Shown here in pieces: positions 1,792-47,904 of a stretch of 47,904 nucleotides of DNA. Made by a program: the position numbers and the translations under genes. Source of the stretch: Aquificota bacterium (GTDB taxonomy: Bacteria > Aquificota > Aquificia > Aquificales > QOAS01); NCBI GenBank assembly GCA_013153315.1, contig JAADES010000049.1, positions 1-47,904 of the forward strand, given 5' to 3'. Within the stretch, counting starts at the first letter, position 1; each line of letters begins with the position of its first letter. Below the pieces are notes generated by a model. The model saw only the letters and a list, made by a program, of their open reading frames with translations, was not told the DNA's origin and did not search any database.

Positions 1792-2841
1792 ATGGCTACC
1801 TTTGATAATAAAAACGACAAAAGCTCGGGAATAACCTATAAGGACGCGGGTGTAGATATAGAAAAAGCCGACCGTTTTGTGGAATATATCAAACAAAAGG
1901 TTAGAGAAGTTCAAGGGCCGGAAATAGTAACCCCCTTTGGGGGCTTTGCCGCCGGTTTCCTTTTGGATATAGGCAAATATAAAGAACCCGTTTTAATGTC
2001 CACCACCGACGGAGTGGGAACCAAATTAAAGATAGCCCAAATAATGAACAAACACGACACCGTAGGAATAGACCTTGTGGCAATGAACGTTAACGACCTA
2101 ATAACAACATTGGCTAAACCTCTATTTTTCCTAGATTACATAGCGACGGGGAAACTGGATTTAGAAGTTCAAAAACAAATTATTGACGGTATAGTGGAGG
2201 GTTGCAAGCACGCTCAATGTTACCTTGTAGGTGGTGAAACCGCCGAAATGCCCGGTTTTTATGCCCCCGGAGAGTATGACCTTGCCGGCTTTTGTGTGGG
2301 AGTTGTAGACCGCCAAGAGATGTTAACAGGAGAAAATATCCAAGCGGGGGATTTATTAATAGGATTACCTTCCAGCGGAATCCATTCCAATGGTTATTCC
2401 CTAGTTAGAAAAATAATTGAAAACCTCTCTTTGGATTACCACCAATATATAGAGGAACTTGGTGGGATTTTGGGAGAAATTTTATTAACCCCTACAAGGA
2501 TTTATGTAAAGGACATATTCAATCTAAAAAACGCAGGAATACAAATGAAAGGTATAGCCCACATAACCGGCGGAGGAATACCAGGAAACCTAATTAGGAT
2601 TCTTCCCGAAGGTGTCCGTGCTGTGGTTCAAAAGGAAAAATTACCAACCCAAAAAATCTTTAAATGGATTCAAGAAAAAGGAAATGTTCCCGAAGGGGAA
2701 ATGTTTAAAACCTTCAACATGGGAGTGGGAATGATTATCGTAGCCGATAGGGAAAATGCAGAAAAAATTCTATCCCTAAATAAGGATGCCCGTTTAATAG
2801 GACATTTGGAGGAAGGAAAAAAAGAGGTTGTTATTGTTTAG
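1792..2841 (+). CDS. purM: Phosphoribosylformylglycinamidine cyclo-ligase (AIR synthetase)
   Basis: PurM performs the fifth step of de novo purine synthesis, converting FGAM plus ATP to aminoimidazole ribonucleotide in the cytoplasm. The 349 residues match the usual family length. Characteristic segments include STTDGVGTKLKIA near residue 70, GGETAEMPG near 146 and the late HITGGGIPGN stretch. It sits 14 bp after rdgB and is convergent with aspS, with 5 bp between the stops and no recognisable terminator. Confidence 0.97.
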   Translation: MATFDNKNDKSSGITYKDAGVDIEKADRFVEYIKQKVREVQGPEIVTPFGGFAAGFLLDIGKYKEPVLMSTTDGVGTKLKIAQIMNKHDTVGIDLVAMNVNDLITTLAKPLFFLDYIATGKLDLEVQKQIIDGIVEGCKHAQCYLVGGETAEMPGFYAPGEYDLAGFCVGVVDRQEMLTGENIQAGDLLIGLPSSGIHSNGYSLVRKIIENLSLDYHQYIEELGGILGEILLTPTRIYVKDIFNLKNAGIQMKGIAHITGGGIPGNLIRILPEGVRAVVQKEKLPTQKIFKWIQEKGNVPEGEMFKTFNMGVGMIIVADRENAEKILSLNKDARLIGHLEEGKKEVVIV

Positions 2842-2846
2842 TTTTG

Positions 2847-4691
2847 TTATTCTTCTTCCAATTCCTCTATTTTGCAATGAACTTCTTTCAACTGTTTGGG
2901 GTCTACATAATCGGGGGCGTTGGTAAGCGGGCAGATACCTTTTTGTGTTTTAGGGAAGGCTATAACGTCCCTTATGCTGTCGGCTCCCACCATTAGGGCC
3001 ACCACCCTGTCTAAGCCGAAAGCAAATCCACCGTGGGGAGGAGCTCCGTATTTGAGAGCCTCTAAGAGAAATCCGAATTTTTCTTGCGCTTCAACTTCAC
3101 CTATGTTTAGAAGTTTGAATATTTTTTGCTGAATGTCGGTGCGGTGTATCCTAATTGAACCGCCCCCTATTTCGTAGCCGTTTAGAACCATATCGTAGGC
3201 CAGGGATTTAACTCCTTTTAGGATTTCTTTTCTTTTTTCTATATCTTCCGTTGCTAAAGCCTCGTCTATTTTGGGAAGGTCTTCTTCCCTGGGCATTGTA
3301 AAGGGGTGGTGCACCGATACAAATCTTTCTTCCTCTTCATCCCACTCCATTAGGGGAAAATCTACCACCCAAAGGAATTTGAAACCTTCTTCGCGGGCGT
3401 TAAGCTCGTCGGCAAGGCGGCGGCGTAGGGCGTCCATAACCTTGTAAACAAATTCTTTGTCGGTATCGGCTTGGAAGAAGATAATGTCTCCCACCGAGGC
3501 ATTTACCCTTTTTAAAAGGTTTTGAATTTCTTCATCACTGAAGAATTTTGTTATAGGGGAGGTTAATTTATTTTCATCTACCCTTATCCAGGCTAATCCT
3601 TTTGCCCCCAACTTTTGGACGAATTTTGTTAATTCATCAATCTTTTGACGGGATAATTTATTAGCCCCACCACGGACTACTATAGCTTTGATAATTCCCC
3701 CTTTGTCTACAACATTTTTAAAGACCTTAAATTGGGTCTCTTTAAAGATATCGGTTAAATCTATTAGGGGGGTTATTATTTCCTCCTTAATCCTTAGGTC
3801 GGGTTTATCGGTTCCATATTTGTCCATTACATAGTCATAGCTGTAAACGGGAAAAGGTTCTTTTAGCTCCACATTAAGGACTTCTTTAAAAACTTTTTTA
3901 ATTAACCTTTCGGCGGTATCCATTACATCTTTTTGCCCTACAAAGGAAAGCTCGAAATCTATTTGAGTAAATTCGGGTTGGCGGTCGGCCCTAAGGTCTT
4001 CGTCCCTTAGGCACTTTGCTATCTGGAAATATTTATCTATTCCCGCCACCATTAATATCTGCTTAAAGAGCTGGGGAGATTGGGGTAGTGCGTAGAACTT
4101 TCCGGGGTGCAACCTCGAAGGAACTATAAAGTCCCTAGCCCCTTCGGGGGTGGATTTGGTAAGCAAGGGGGTTTCAACCTCTATAAATCCTTCTTCGGTC
4201 ATGAAGTTCCTAACCACTTGGTAGGTTTTATGTCTAATTAGGAGGTTATTGAGCATAGGTCTCCGACGCAAATCCAAATAGCGATAGCGGAGTCGGGTTT
4301 CTTCGTTAACGTTTATATCGTCCTCGATTTGGAAGGGCAAAGGTTGCTGGGCGGTGTTTAAAACAACCACTTTATCGGCCAAAACTTCCACATACCCCGT
4401 TGGAATTTTGGGGTTTTCCGTTCCTTCGGGGCGGCGTCTTACAACCCCTTCTATCGCTATAACATACTCGGGTTTTACGCGGTCGGCTATTTCGTAGGCT
4501 TCAGGGGTTTTTAATTCTTCCACAACTACCTGGACTATTCCGCTTCTATCGCGTAAATCTATAAAGACAACTCCGCCGTGGTTTCTGACAGTATCAACCC
4601 AACCGGCGAGGCGGACTTTTTGGCCTATATTATTTTCGTTTAATTCTCCACAATAGTGGGTTCTTCTAAAATCTCCTAAAACTTCCAGCAT
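2847..4691 (-). CDS. aspS: Aspartyl-tRNA synthetase
   Basis: A class II aminoacyl-tRNA synthetase of 614 residues, slightly longer than the usual bacterial ~590. It has an N-terminal OB-fold (GWVDTVRNHGGVVFIDLRDR), then motif 2 (FRDEDLRADRQPEFTQ-type, here CLRDEDLRADRQPEFTQ), the bacterial GAD insertion, and motif 3 near the C-terminus (FAFGLDRVVALMVG). It charges tRNA-Asp. Many thermophilic bacteria use a non-discriminating AspRS with GatCAB; the sequence alone does not settle this here. It starts at ATG 4691. The 75-bp gap to the next minus-strand gene holds nothing I recognise. Confidence 0.97.
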   Translation of the reverse strand: MLEVLGDFRRTHYCGELNENNIGQKVRLAGWVDTVRNHGGVVFIDLRDRSGIVQVVVEELKTPEAYEIADRVKPEYVIAIEGVVRRRPEGTENPKIPTGYVEVLADKVVVLNTAQQPLPFQIEDDINVNEETRLRYRYLDLRRRPMLNNLLIRHKTYQVVRNFMTEEGFIEVETPLLTKSTPEGARDFIVPSRLHPGKFYALPQSPQLFKQILMVAGIDKYFQIAKCLRDEDLRADRQPEFTQIDFELSFVGQKDVMDTAERLIKKVFKEVLNVELKEPFPVYSYDYVMDKYGTDKPDLRIKEEIITPLIDLTDIFKETQFKVFKNVVDKGGIIKAIVVRGGANKLSRQKIDELTKFVQKLGAKGLAWIRVDENKLTSPITKFFSDEEIQNLLKRVNASVGDIIFFQADTDKEFVYKVMDALRRRLADELNAREEGFKFLWVVDFPLMEWDEEEERFVSVHHPFTMPREEDLPKIDEALATEDIEKRKEILKGVKSLAYDMVLNGYEIGGGSIRIHRTDIQQKIFKLLNIGEVEAQEKFGFLLEALKYGAPPHGGFAFGLDRVVALMVGADSIRDVIAFPKTQKGICPLTNAPDYVDPKQLKEVHCKIEELEEE

Positions 4692-5710: not shown

Positions 5711-6787
5711 TTAGGAAAGATAGGTTTTCTCTTTTAGTTTGGGTTTAACTTTTTCTTGATACTCGTCCCAAGACATTTCGAAGATTTCGTCCAAAGTGAA
5801 ACCGAGGTCTTCGGCCAGTTCTTTGGAGAGTTTTTCCATTCTTAGGAGATAATCCCATTTGGTGTAGATTTCTTCTTTAATTTTGTCCAAAACTTGGGGC
5901 ATTTTTAGGACGTGTCTCCAACGGGGTTGCATTGCGATGTAGTCTTCAATGGGCTTGGGTTTAGAGGGTTTTACATTGATTCTCCAAAATCTTCCCTCTA
6001 TAACTTCGTAGAGGGGCCAATAGAGGGATTCGGTAGCCAATTTTAGAGCACGGAAGGCTTCTTCGGGTTTAGTTCTCCACGATAGGGTGCAGGATTGCAG
6101 AACGTTTATAAACTTAAATCCTTTGACATCTTTGGATTTCCTAATTTTGCGGGTGAAGTCCTTGTAATTGAAGGGGTTTGCTTGGGCGGTATAGGGGATT
6201 TCGTGGGCGGCCATTATTAGAGTTAGGTCTTTTCTTTTTTCTTCTTTACCTACAATTTTGGAACCTACAGGTGTTGTTTTTGTGAATGCTCCGATGGGTG
6301 TAGCGGAAGACCTTTGATAACCAGTGTTTTGATATCCTTCGTTGTTGTAGCAAACATAGAGCATATTGTGGTTTCTTTCGGCCGCTCCAGAGAGAGCTTG
6401 AAAACCAATATCGTAGGTTCCACCGTCTCCGTTTATGGAAACGAAGTGTATTTCTTTGTCTATTTTTCCTTTCTTTTTAAAGGCTTTATAGGCAGCTTCA
6501 GCACCCGATAGAACGGCGGGGTTGTTTTCGAATGCCACGTGTATCCATGGAACGGTCCACGCTGTGTAAGGGAATACTCCCGTGGTCACTTCCAAACATC
6601 CGGTGTTGGAACCGGTTACGGTGTCTTTACCGTATTCGAGAAGAATCATATTAACGATGGGGGGAATGGAACATCCGGGACACATTCTGTGACCGGGGGC
6701 AAGGGGGTTCTCGTAAGGCCACTGATGGCTTTCTTCCGCCAAGTGGGTCAAAACAGGTATGTTAACAAACTTCTTTCTTTTGGCCAT
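5711..6787 (-). CDS. porB: Pyruvate:ferredoxin oxidoreductase, beta subunit
   Basis: The thiamine-pyrophosphate subunit of a four-subunit 2-oxoacid:ferredoxin oxidoreductase, 358 residues. The TPP/Mg motif is GDGGTYDIGFQ beginning at residue 120, with N148/N149 following. Cluster ligands are C36 and C39 (CPGC), C64 (TGC) and a later Cys near 233, as in other PorB proteins. In this autotroph it would run in the reductive direction, making pyruvate from acetyl-CoA, CO2 and reduced ferredoxin. The start at 6787 has a clear AGGAGGT. It is the last gene of porG-porD-porA-porB. About 50 extra residues at the C-terminus extend past the usual core. Confidence 0.95.
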   Translation of the reverse strand: MAKRKKFVNIPVLTHLAEESHQWPYENPLAPGHRMCPGCSIPPIVNMILLEYGKDTVTGSNTGCLEVTTGVFPYTAWTVPWIHVAFENNPAVLSGAEAAYKAFKKKGKIDKEIHFVSINGDGGTYDIGFQALSGAAERNHNMLYVCYNNEGYQNTGYQRSSATPIGAFTKTTPVGSKIVGKEEKRKDLTLIMAAHEIPYTAQANPFNYKDFTRKIRKSKDVKGFKFINVLQSCTLSWRTKPEEAFRALKLATESLYWPLYEVIEGRFWRINVKPSKPKPIEDYIAMQPRWRHVLKMPQVLDKIKEEIYTKWDYLLRMEKLSKELAEDLGFTLDEIFEMSWDEYQEKVKPKLKEKTYLS

Positions 6788-46201: not shown

Positions 46202-46588
46202 TTAAATTCCGCAGGCTCCGCTACCGCAGGAGGAGCAACCGCCGCCGAAGTTCATAGCGTTAGGGTTGTTTATTTTAAAACCTTCCCCGAAGGGGGTTTG
46301 AACATAATCTATTTCCGCACCGTTTATGAAGGGAACGGAATTTTGGTCTACAACCACCTTAATACCGTGTTGCTCTACTACTACGTCGTTGTCTCTAACT
46401 TCGTCAAAACCCATAGAGTAGGAAATTCCGCTGCAACCGCCGGGGATTGCCTGAACCCTTAAAACAATATCTTTTATACCGTGCTGCTCGGCCAATTTTT
46501 TTAGCTCTTGGGCAGCTTTTTCGGTTACTGTTATAACAACGGTGTTATTTTGTTCTTGGGTTTGAACATTGTTATTTTGCTCTTGCAT
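46202..46588 (-). CDS. A-type iron-sulfur carrier (IscA/ErpA/HesB family)
   Basis: A 128-residue carrier. An unusual Gln/Asn-rich N-terminus (about 18 residues) precedes the core. The cluster ligands are C52 in PGGCSGISYSMGF and a Cys-rich C-terminus with C118, C121 and C126 (GGGCSSCGSGAC) instead of the normal single CxC. The central segment FINGAEIDYVQTPFGEGFKINNPNA is typical. It delivers Fe-S clusters, which fits the many Fe-S enzymes in this window. The ATG at 46588 has a TTAAGGAGGTT site. Confidence 0.93.
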   Translation of the reverse strand: MQEQNNNVQTQEQNNTVVITVTEKAAQELKKLAEQHGIKDIVLRVQAIPGGCSGISYSMGFDEVRDNDVVVEQHGIKVVVDQNSVPFINGAEIDYVQTPFGEGFKINNPNAMNFGGGCSSCGSGACGI

Positions 46589-46652: not shown

Positions 46653-46671
46653 TTTCCTCAATTTGAGGAAA
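46653..46671. promoter_or_regulatory. 19-bp palindrome upstream of cas2
   Basis: TTTCCTCAA-T-TTGAGGAAA is a perfect 9-bp inverted repeat with a single central base. It lies 18 bp before the cas2 ATG and 65 bp from the divergent Fe-S carrier start. Its length and symmetry suit an operator bound by a dimeric repressor. It is isolated, and no second copy is visible in this window. Confidence 0.45.
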
Positions 46672-46689: not shown

Positions 46690-46938
46690 ATGCCTAAATT
46701 TTTAGTTTGCTACGATGTAAGCTCCGAAAAAAAACGTTCCCGCCTTAGGAAGAAGTTAAAAGACAGCGGGCTTCACTTGCAATGGAGTGTCTTCGAAGTG
46801 GAAGCCGACAATGCCGAGCAAATTAGGAAATTCCTTTCGGAAAAAATAGAAAATTTCGAAAGTTTAATGGTTTTTCGAATTAAAAAACTTGAAGCCCGCT
46901 TAGGCACCGACTGGGAAATTCCCGAATATCGAATTTAA
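46690..46938 (+). CDS. cas2: CRISPR-associated endonuclease Cas2-like protein
   Basis: An 82-residue protein of ferredoxin-like fold. The first strand FLVCYDVSSEKKRSRLRKKL carries the conserved Asp9 and following Arg/Lys, and GLHLQWSVFEVEA is the second signature. Cas2 is slightly shorter than usual (85-95 residues). In adaptation complexes it bridges Cas1 dimers. Here no cas1, other cas gene or repeat array is visible, and an unknown gene follows 9 bp later. It may belong to a locus that continues elsewhere, or be a free-standing Cas2/VapD-like protein. Confidence 0.88.
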   Translation: MPKFLVCYDVSSEKKRSRLRKKLKDSGLHLQWSVFEVEADNAEQIRKFLSEKIENFESLMVFRIKKLEARLGTDWEIPEYRI

Positions 46939-46947
46939 AATAAAATC

Positions 46948-47766
46948 ATGGATATCTCTTTCAAAAGCTTGGCTCGGCTCTTTAGGGAAAAGAAACTTAT
47001 AACCATAGCTTCAAAAAATACCCCCTACCGGTTTCAAAATGGAAAACTGACCGTTTTTAGGGAAAGTTTTGATTACAAAAACCTTTTGGGGGTAATCTTC
47101 TTAGAAAAACCTTCATCCCCTCCAAGGGTTAGAAAAGTTCCTTTAATTTTTCTTAGACCTTTTGAGGTTAAAAACATTTCCCTTCAACCCACGGACGAAA
47201 CAGTTTTAAAAGCTCTCCTTTACGAGGTTTGTATAAAAGTGGGTCAAGACCTTCAAAAGTTTTTGTCTAAATACCTAATCCACAAAGGCGGAGGAATAAC
47301 AGTCCTCGCAAGGGGGAAAAGGAAAAGCTACTACAAACGGGTTAACATGCATTTTATTCCCTTTTATGTGGACTGTAAATTTAATCTTCCTATAGAGCAG
47401 TATTTAGCCCGTATTAATCACTATCTGAGGGAAACCTACTATGGTGAGCTAAACTTATATGCCCGCCTCTCCTTGGCTACAGGAATTTTAATAGCCCACG
47501 CTTGGAATATAGAATTACCAGAACCTAAGGAATATTTACCGCTTTGGTTTCTACCTTCGGCCTACGCTCTAACCCAAATGCTTGATTTAAAAGAAAAAAC
47601 CTACGGGTTGGAAAGTTATGCCAAAATCCCTCCGAGGGGTGCTGTTATGGCCTTCTACAACGAACTTATAAACAATGAACCCTATCAGGAATTCCTTCTA
47701 AGGGACTTGATAAATCTCCAATCGAAGGGGGATTTTTCAACAAATTACCGTTTTAGATGGTTTTAA
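46948..47766 (+). CDS. Unknown protein encoded with cas2
   Basis: A 272-residue soluble protein of no family I recognise. It is 9 bp downstream of cas2 in the same orientation. It has a basic patch GKRKSYYKRVNMHF around 131-144 that could contact nucleic acid. A helix-rich middle (QYLARINHYLRETYYGELNLYARLSLATGILIAHAW, about 157-192, listed here only in parts) and the aromatic C-terminus NYRFRWF follow. Cas1 signature residues (an E/H/D triad with GLDP or DLMEPFR-like motifs) are not present. No Cas4, Cas6, or HD motif either. The ATG has no clear Shine-Dalgarno, so translation may be coupled to cas2. Confidence 0.65.
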   Translation: MDISFKSLARLFREKKLITIASKNTPYRFQNGKLTVFRESFDYKNLLGVIFLEKPSSPPRVRKVPLIFLRPFEVKNISLQPTDETVLKALLYEVCIKVGQDLQKFLSKYLIHKGGGITVLARGKRKSYYKRVNMHFIPFYVDCKFNLPIEQYLARINHYLRETYYGELNLYARLSLATGILIAHAWNIELPEPKEYLPLWFLPSAYALTQMLDLKEKTYGLESYAKIPPRGAVMAFYNELINNEPYQEFLLRDLINLQSKGDFSTNYRFRWF

Positions 47767-47786: not shown

Positions 47787-47903
47787 CTAAAACCATGAAA
47801 GATTATGTTCCTCAATATAAGCGTATAAAAGTTTTATTAGTCGGGCTAGTTGTATAGGTGTCCATGGCTCGATGCTAATTTCTTCTTCTTCTTCTTCAAA
47901 TTT
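47787..47903 (-). CDS. C-terminal end of an unidentified protein (5' partial)
   Basis: The minus strand is open from the right edge to a TAG at 47787-47789, giving 38 residues: six consecutive Glu, then ISIEPWTPIQLARLIKLLYA and a final YIEEHNLSWF. The composition (a Glu run, an amphipathic helix) is credible for a protein end, and it would be convergent with the cas2-associated gene. There is too little to identify a family. Confidence 0.45.
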   Translation of the reverse strand, partial: KFEEEEEEISIEPWTPIQLARLIKLLYAYIEEHNLSWF

Positions 47904-47904
47904 A

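Follow-up and report, generated by a model that had tools for sequence, protein, structure and literature searches.

The window analyzed here is an entire contig (C36, 47,904 bp) of an Aquificota draft genome of 58 contigs (G000). At its right-hand end, a cas2 gene (cas2a) is followed on the same strand by a gene for a 272-residue protein, referred to below as X. The features of this region are as follows:

46202–46588, minus strand: gene for an IscA/HesB-type Fe-S carrier (TIGR00049, E 1.9e-28; PF01521, E 9.6e-18), outside the module
46653–46671, no strand: perfect inverted repeat TTTCCTCAATTTGAGGAAA, read in the sequence between iscA and cas2a, 5′ of cas2a
46690–46938, plus strand: cas2a, 82 aa (PF09827, E 1.2e-11), the Cas2 paralogue encoded downstream of cas1 in relatives
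46948–47766, plus strand: X, 272 aa, a divergent, shortened Cas1 homologue, predicted to be catalytically dead
47787–47904, minus strand: Rep_3-type gene for a replication initiator (3′ end only), convergent with X, its frame open to the contig edge

The original prediction of a two-gene unit was correct in its coordinates, frames, and 9-nt gap (46939–46947). The divergent Fe-S carrier gene that it described was confirmed as IscA/HesB type, and the convergent gene that it suspected proved to be real, namely the 3′ end of the Rep_3-type initiator gene. Membership of cas2a in the Cas2 family was established with PF09827 (45 bits, cut-off 23.8) and TIGR01573 (34.6 bits, cut-off 24.5, E 1.7e-8). 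Among six genomes of the same genus, none of cas1, cas2a, and X was found adjoining iscA. The inverted repeat TTTCCTCAATTTGAGGAAA was considered as a CRISPR repeat and rejected, because the 27-mer around it is single-copy in the genome, even when 3 mismatches are allowed. Lying upstream of cas2a, it is possibly a regulatory site or operator.

The initiator gene starts 20 bp past X and is cut by the contig end, of which it occupies the last 117 bp. This DNA showed 86–100% matches at C25:1–91, C58:30782–30874, and C54:1791–3458 of the same genome, the C54 copy being Rep3. The repeated contig-end sequence was also considered as a CRISPR leader, a candidate discarded on its identification as the Rep_3 gene. 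Several copies of the Rep_3 3′ end are present in the genome, one of which adjoins the cas2a-X pair and interrupts the assembly at that point; these multiple copies hint at integrated plasmids.

A four-gene module in the genome and its relatives

The cas2 gene had been called an orphan, with cas1 absent from its operon. The absence of cas1 holds for the window, and the term "orphan" fits the locus but not the genome, because an intact cas1 of the partner clade sits on another contig. A second cas2 gene is also kept elsewhere in the genome:

C28:11584–12462: cas1, solitary, flanked by tyrS and a rhomboid gene
C12: cas2b, alone, adjoining leuS

The Cas1 encoded on C28 (PF01867, E 6.4e-54) contains E141, H207, and D219 and is catalytically intact. 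The genome also carries a type III-B cmr operon with Cas10, Cmr1, and Cmr4 on C25, and a CRISPR array of at least 12 repeats on C54. An X homologue was found in one other member of the genus (G004), where the genes form the operon cas1-cas2a-X-cas2b, followed by a Csx1/Csm6-type gene. Between the two genomes, identity is about 40% for X, 56% for Cas1, and 73–76% for the Cas2 proteins. All four orthologues are intact in the window's genome but lie in three places (cas1; cas2a-X; cas2b), as read from the 58-contig draft, and co-regulation there is therefore unproven. Gene order in this genus is poorly conserved, in line with the scattered operons of Aquificales in general. In same-genus relatives, neither flanking pair (tyrS/rhomboid; iscA/acetyltransferase) was found as neighbours, which leaves no intact site for an empty-site comparison of the dispersal. 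Another relative in the genus (G003, contig C94) contains broken cas1 and cas2b fragments of the module's clade, with stops or a frame change (L140:3643–3795 and 6091–6283); the module is decayed in this genome.

The Cas1 of the window's genome was searched against 136 genomes of Aquificota, a phylum of heat-loving bacteria, of which 79 had a match at E ≤ 0.001. The 40 loci around the best Cas1 matches were taken and their open reading frames mapped. Relatives of this Cas1 mostly adjoin two different cas2 genes and an X-like gene, in several arrangements. In group f2, the order cas2b-cas1-cas2a-X was observed in seven genomes (G047, G051, G096, G066, G039, G068, and G078), and X-cas2b-cas1-cas2a in two (G035 and G007). 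In group f3, the X-like gene encodes a protein of 283–299 aa, here termed Cas1′, in the order Cas1′-cas2b-cas1-cas2a (G036, G101, G030, G044, G042, G048, G052, and G016). In group f5, cas1 is accompanied either by two cas2 genes (cas1-cas2-cas2) or by a gene for a Cas2-Cas2 fusion of 204–212 aa; in loci L081, L091, L093, and L095 the fusion follows Cas1. Locus L093 further includes a second, very divergent Cas1-like open reading frame (2260–3078) with two cas2 genes of its own. In G101 (L072:5866–6781), a Cas1′-like gene preceded by two cas2 genes is split into two open reading frames of 195 and 107 codons.

Searches with the alignment of the window and f2 sequences detected X in ten genomes, plus marginal fragments, and the f3 profile identified nine genomes bearing Cas1′. 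CRISPR arrays adjoin most modules of this Cas1 clade, and the flanking genes tested were type III genes (Cmr1, Csm5, Csx1) or Cas6. Scans of viral contigs and a tblastn search of plasmids returned nothing. Some loci with two cas2 genes have no X nearby (L064 and L078 in f2, some second loci in f3, and f5 generally); X is therefore dispensable for some Cas1 proteins of the clade.

In a tree of 76 Cas2 domains, the sequences were split according to operon position, with 8 label changes compared with a mean of 40.9 after shuffling. The solitary cas2b of the window's genome grouped with the upstream Cas2 of f2 (support 98), and the cas2a of the window fell within the downstream set (support 85), together with that of G004. 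The deep branching is uncertain because the alignment is short. Judged from this tree, Cas2a and Cas2b are old paralogues sorted by operon position, and this sorting, together with the Cas2-Cas2 fusion in f5, suggests that the two may form a Cas2a–Cas2b heterodimer.

Relationship of X to Cas1

The window X had no match in Pfam, NCBIfam, or PADLOC at E values up to 10 and did not reach the cut-off of the Cas1 profile; a sequence-profile search of the PDB with the X or Cas1′ alignments also gave nothing. Comparison of profiles revealed the relationship. With hhalign, the f3 Cas1′ profile was aligned to 23 Cas1 sequences of the clade over 253 columns (probability 93.7, E 2e-7), and alone it retrieved canonical f5 Cas1 reading frames in G135 (E 4.1e-4) and G132 (E 0.0086). 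The Cas1′ protein at the X position in L072 passes the Pfam Cas1 cut-off itself (30.7 bits against 22.3, E 2.4e-7).

For X, the f2 profile with its tail removed scored 32.3 against Cas1, a value reached by none of 200 column shuffles (maximum 25.9). The N-terminal half of the combined f1 and f2 X sequences, which include the window and G004, matched Cas1 with a probability of 80 (E 1.4e-5; 0 of 200 shuffles), and in the C-terminal half the motif P+xxVNAxLSY (within Y..P+..VNA.LSY) was aligned with Cas1, again with 0 of 200 shuffles. The window and G004 sequences are in turn related to the f2 X (probability 82, E 1e-5, 196 columns, 0 of 200 shuffles). The profiles of X and Cas1 are thus homologous in colinear register. 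When the f2 X profile was run against the 1,969 open reading frames of the set, the top ranks, although of weak score, were strongly enriched in canonical Cas1; this enrichment serves as supporting evidence only, because those Cas1 proteins are mutually related. Direct comparison of the f1 and f2 X profile with f3 Cas1′ gave no match, and X and Cas1′ may therefore have arisen separately or go back to a single, very ancient origin.

The conserved C-terminal tail of the f2 X (ETHGGLPxHTRKL) was considered as what might be left of the His motif of Cas1. This candidate was rejected, as the tail is antisense to the 3′ end of the overlapping cas6 gene; it is also of low confidence in the structure model and was trimmed from the profile tests. 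The f2 X genes, for instance at L105:770–928, and a convergent cas6 overlap at their 3′ ends, with the X tail antisense to the G-rich motif of Cas6, and the f2 X profile also matches the antisense of cas6 in L085.

Structure prediction with AlphaFold2 for the f2 X of G068 was based on 12 diverse rows that included the window X and no Cas1. The model (pLDDT 80, pTM 0.78) comprises a beta N-terminal domain and a helical C-terminal domain. Among 350,542 PDB chains searched with Foldseek, Cas1 chains (TtCas1 6ke1 and Cas1 8fy9/8fyc) occupied ranks 1–3, with probabilities of 0.89, 0.80, and 0.87, E values of 0.020–0.033, and TM scores of 0.38–0.41. The model of the window X, built from two X sequences, is of low confidence (pLDDT 45), and its Foldseek ranks 1–7 were likewise Cas1 chains. 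These models lend modest support to a Cas1 fold, with an N-terminal beta and a C-terminal helical domain, in the f2 X family, the window X model being of low confidence. Taken together, the Cas1 homology of X is well supported by modest lines that agree, although the match of the window X to Cas1 is individually weak.

The catalytic residues E141, H207, and D219 (G000 numbering) are retained in the Cas1 proteins of the clade, with Asp in place of Glu in the f5 Cas1 sequences aligned. In all seven f3 Cas1′ sequences, the Glu is replaced by Pro, Ile, Leu, or Val and the His by Asn, and the Asp is kept. In X, the motif alignment places Pro or Leu at the Glu position, and the His/Asp region would lie beyond the end of the protein; for these two reasons X was not classed as a functional Cas1. 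From these replacements, X appears to be catalytically dead. Both X and Cas1′ are nonetheless under purifying selection, with dN/dS of 0.055/0.347 (about 0.16) for X between G047 and G051 over 208 codons, with the tail that overlaps cas6 excluded, and of about 0.18–0.21 for Cas1′ in two pairs.

X therefore resembles Cas1 (PF01867), the integrase subunit in spacer acquisition, in its domain order (beta at the N terminus, then helical), its NALLSY-like helix motif, and its linkage to cas2. It differs in being shorter, in having no Pfam match, and in lacking the catalytic Glu together with the His/Asp region, and it accompanies a catalytic Cas1 rather than replacing it. The option of a divergent adaptation protein, raised in the original prediction, is consequently supported by the place of X in a cas1-cas2a-X-cas2b module and by the homology of its family to Cas1. 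Whether a sensitive search would identify the partner as a known Cas protein had also been asked; it did so weakly, yielding a Cas1 homologue but no functional Cas1.

Possible roles of X in spacer acquisition

In an ordinary Cas1 dimer, only one protomer does the chemistry. In the canonical integrase, two Cas1 dimers flank a Cas2 dimer, and catalytic and non-catalytic protomers of Cas1 can be told apart in its structures (PMC6895254). The module described here shares with it the same protein families, a Cas1 with an intact site, and, in relatives, adjoining arrays; the non-catalytic protomers already present in the canonical complex resemble the role proposed for X. Whereas the canonical complex is built from homodimers, the module encodes two diverged Cas2 paralogues and a dead Cas1-like protein.

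We consider that X is probably a non-catalytic partner of Cas1, which would form a four-part adaptation complex with catalytic Cas1, Cas2a, and Cas2b. X or Cas1′ would take over the part of the inactive Cas1 protomer, now encoded by a separate gene, and Cas1–X heterodimers would be bridged by the Cas2a–Cas2b heterodimer. The active Cas1 (on C28 in the window's genome, with E141, H207, and D219) would join the prespacer ends to the repeat, and X would provide dimer contacts and the positioning of DNA or of the repeat. The built-in asymmetry could fix which prespacer end meets the leader side, and such an asymmetric integrase would serve type III systems. A fuller version of this reading, whose chances we regard as evenly balanced, is a heteromeric integrase of four distinct subunits, in which duplication split the catalytic and structural roles and an inbuilt polarity could set spacer orientation. 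The gene set and its conservation, the homology, the loss of active-site residues, and the selection are observed; complex formation, the heterodimers, their stoichiometry, and the control of orientation are what we infer here.

Alternatively, X could be a regulator derived from Cas1, a dominant-negative homologue whose binding to Cas1, to Cas2, or to the leader would dampen or gate the acquisition of spacers. The loss of its catalytic residues, the truncation of its C-terminal metal domain, its faster evolution than that of its partners between the two genomes of the genus, and the existence of modules without X would all suit such a role. However, X often shares one operon with cas1 and cas2, and the fixed Cas2 pair suggests a changed architecture of the complex, beyond regulation alone, so we judge this role unlikely. 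Less probable again is an accessory role in adaptation, in which X would use its Cas1-like fold to bind prespacer or leader DNA outside the Cas1 dimer in the manner of Cas4, Csn2, or IHF. X lacks catalytic residues and is linked to adaptation genes adjoining type III effectors, and no cas4 was noticed beside the modules among the genes listed, but it is Cas1 proper to which X is homologous, and the homology takes in the N-terminal domain through which Cas1 dimerizes in known structures. This homology makes the protomer role simpler than the accessory one.

Decay of a cas1 copy without function would explain why X is truncated, dead, and fast-evolving, and G003 does hold decayed cas1 and cas2b fragments; the dN/dS of about 0.16, the long open frames in ten genomes, and the retention of X with cas2a after the operon dispersed in the window's genome make it very improbable. 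Least probable of all is the new Cas2-linked nuclease, RNase, or toxin module of the original prediction, unrelated to adaptation: it draws on the two-gene layout of the window and the general resemblance of Cas2 to VapD-type RNases, whereas X is homologous to Cas1, the pair is linked in relatives to cas1, cas2b, and arrays, and no nuclease or toxin family (Pfam, NCBIfam, PADLOC) and no toxin–antitoxin or VapD-like relationship was recovered.

Other remodelled adaptation modules are known, including Cas2/3, Cas2-DEDDh, Cas4-Cas1, RT-Cas1, and Cas1-Cas2 fusions, to which the Cas2-Cas2 fusion of f5 may be compared. Cas2/3, Cas2-DEDDh, Cas4-Cas1, and RT-Cas1 add an enzyme domain, whereas the module here duplicates and specializes the subunits of the integrase. 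A survey of hot-spring Cas1 proteins described Cas1-solo proteins in which the catalytic residues are not conserved (PMC9755687). Cas1-solo and casposase-related Cas1 proteins stand alone or with a transposon polymerase, whereas X sits with CRISPR cas1 and cas2. A four-part module with paired or heterodimeric Cas2 and an inactive Cas1 paralogue was not found in the open-licence literature, an absence that is no proof, and keyword passages of the 2025 CRISPR classification paper (PMC12669027) mention no such module.

The partnership proposed for X and Cas1 bears on a general feature of spacer acquisition. The complexes that carry out CRISPR adaptation have been described as symmetrical, and further determinants are required for them to insert spacers in a single orientation. 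If the proposal is true, each protomer could be mutated or removed singly, which is impossible in a homodimer, and the question of asymmetry would become directly testable. X is an adaptation gene missed by annotation in many Aquificota genomes, and the modules of this clade present a graded series, with two Cas2 proteins, fused Cas2 proteins, a near-full-length dead Cas1, and a truncated dead Cas1, the last two judged inactive from their residues.
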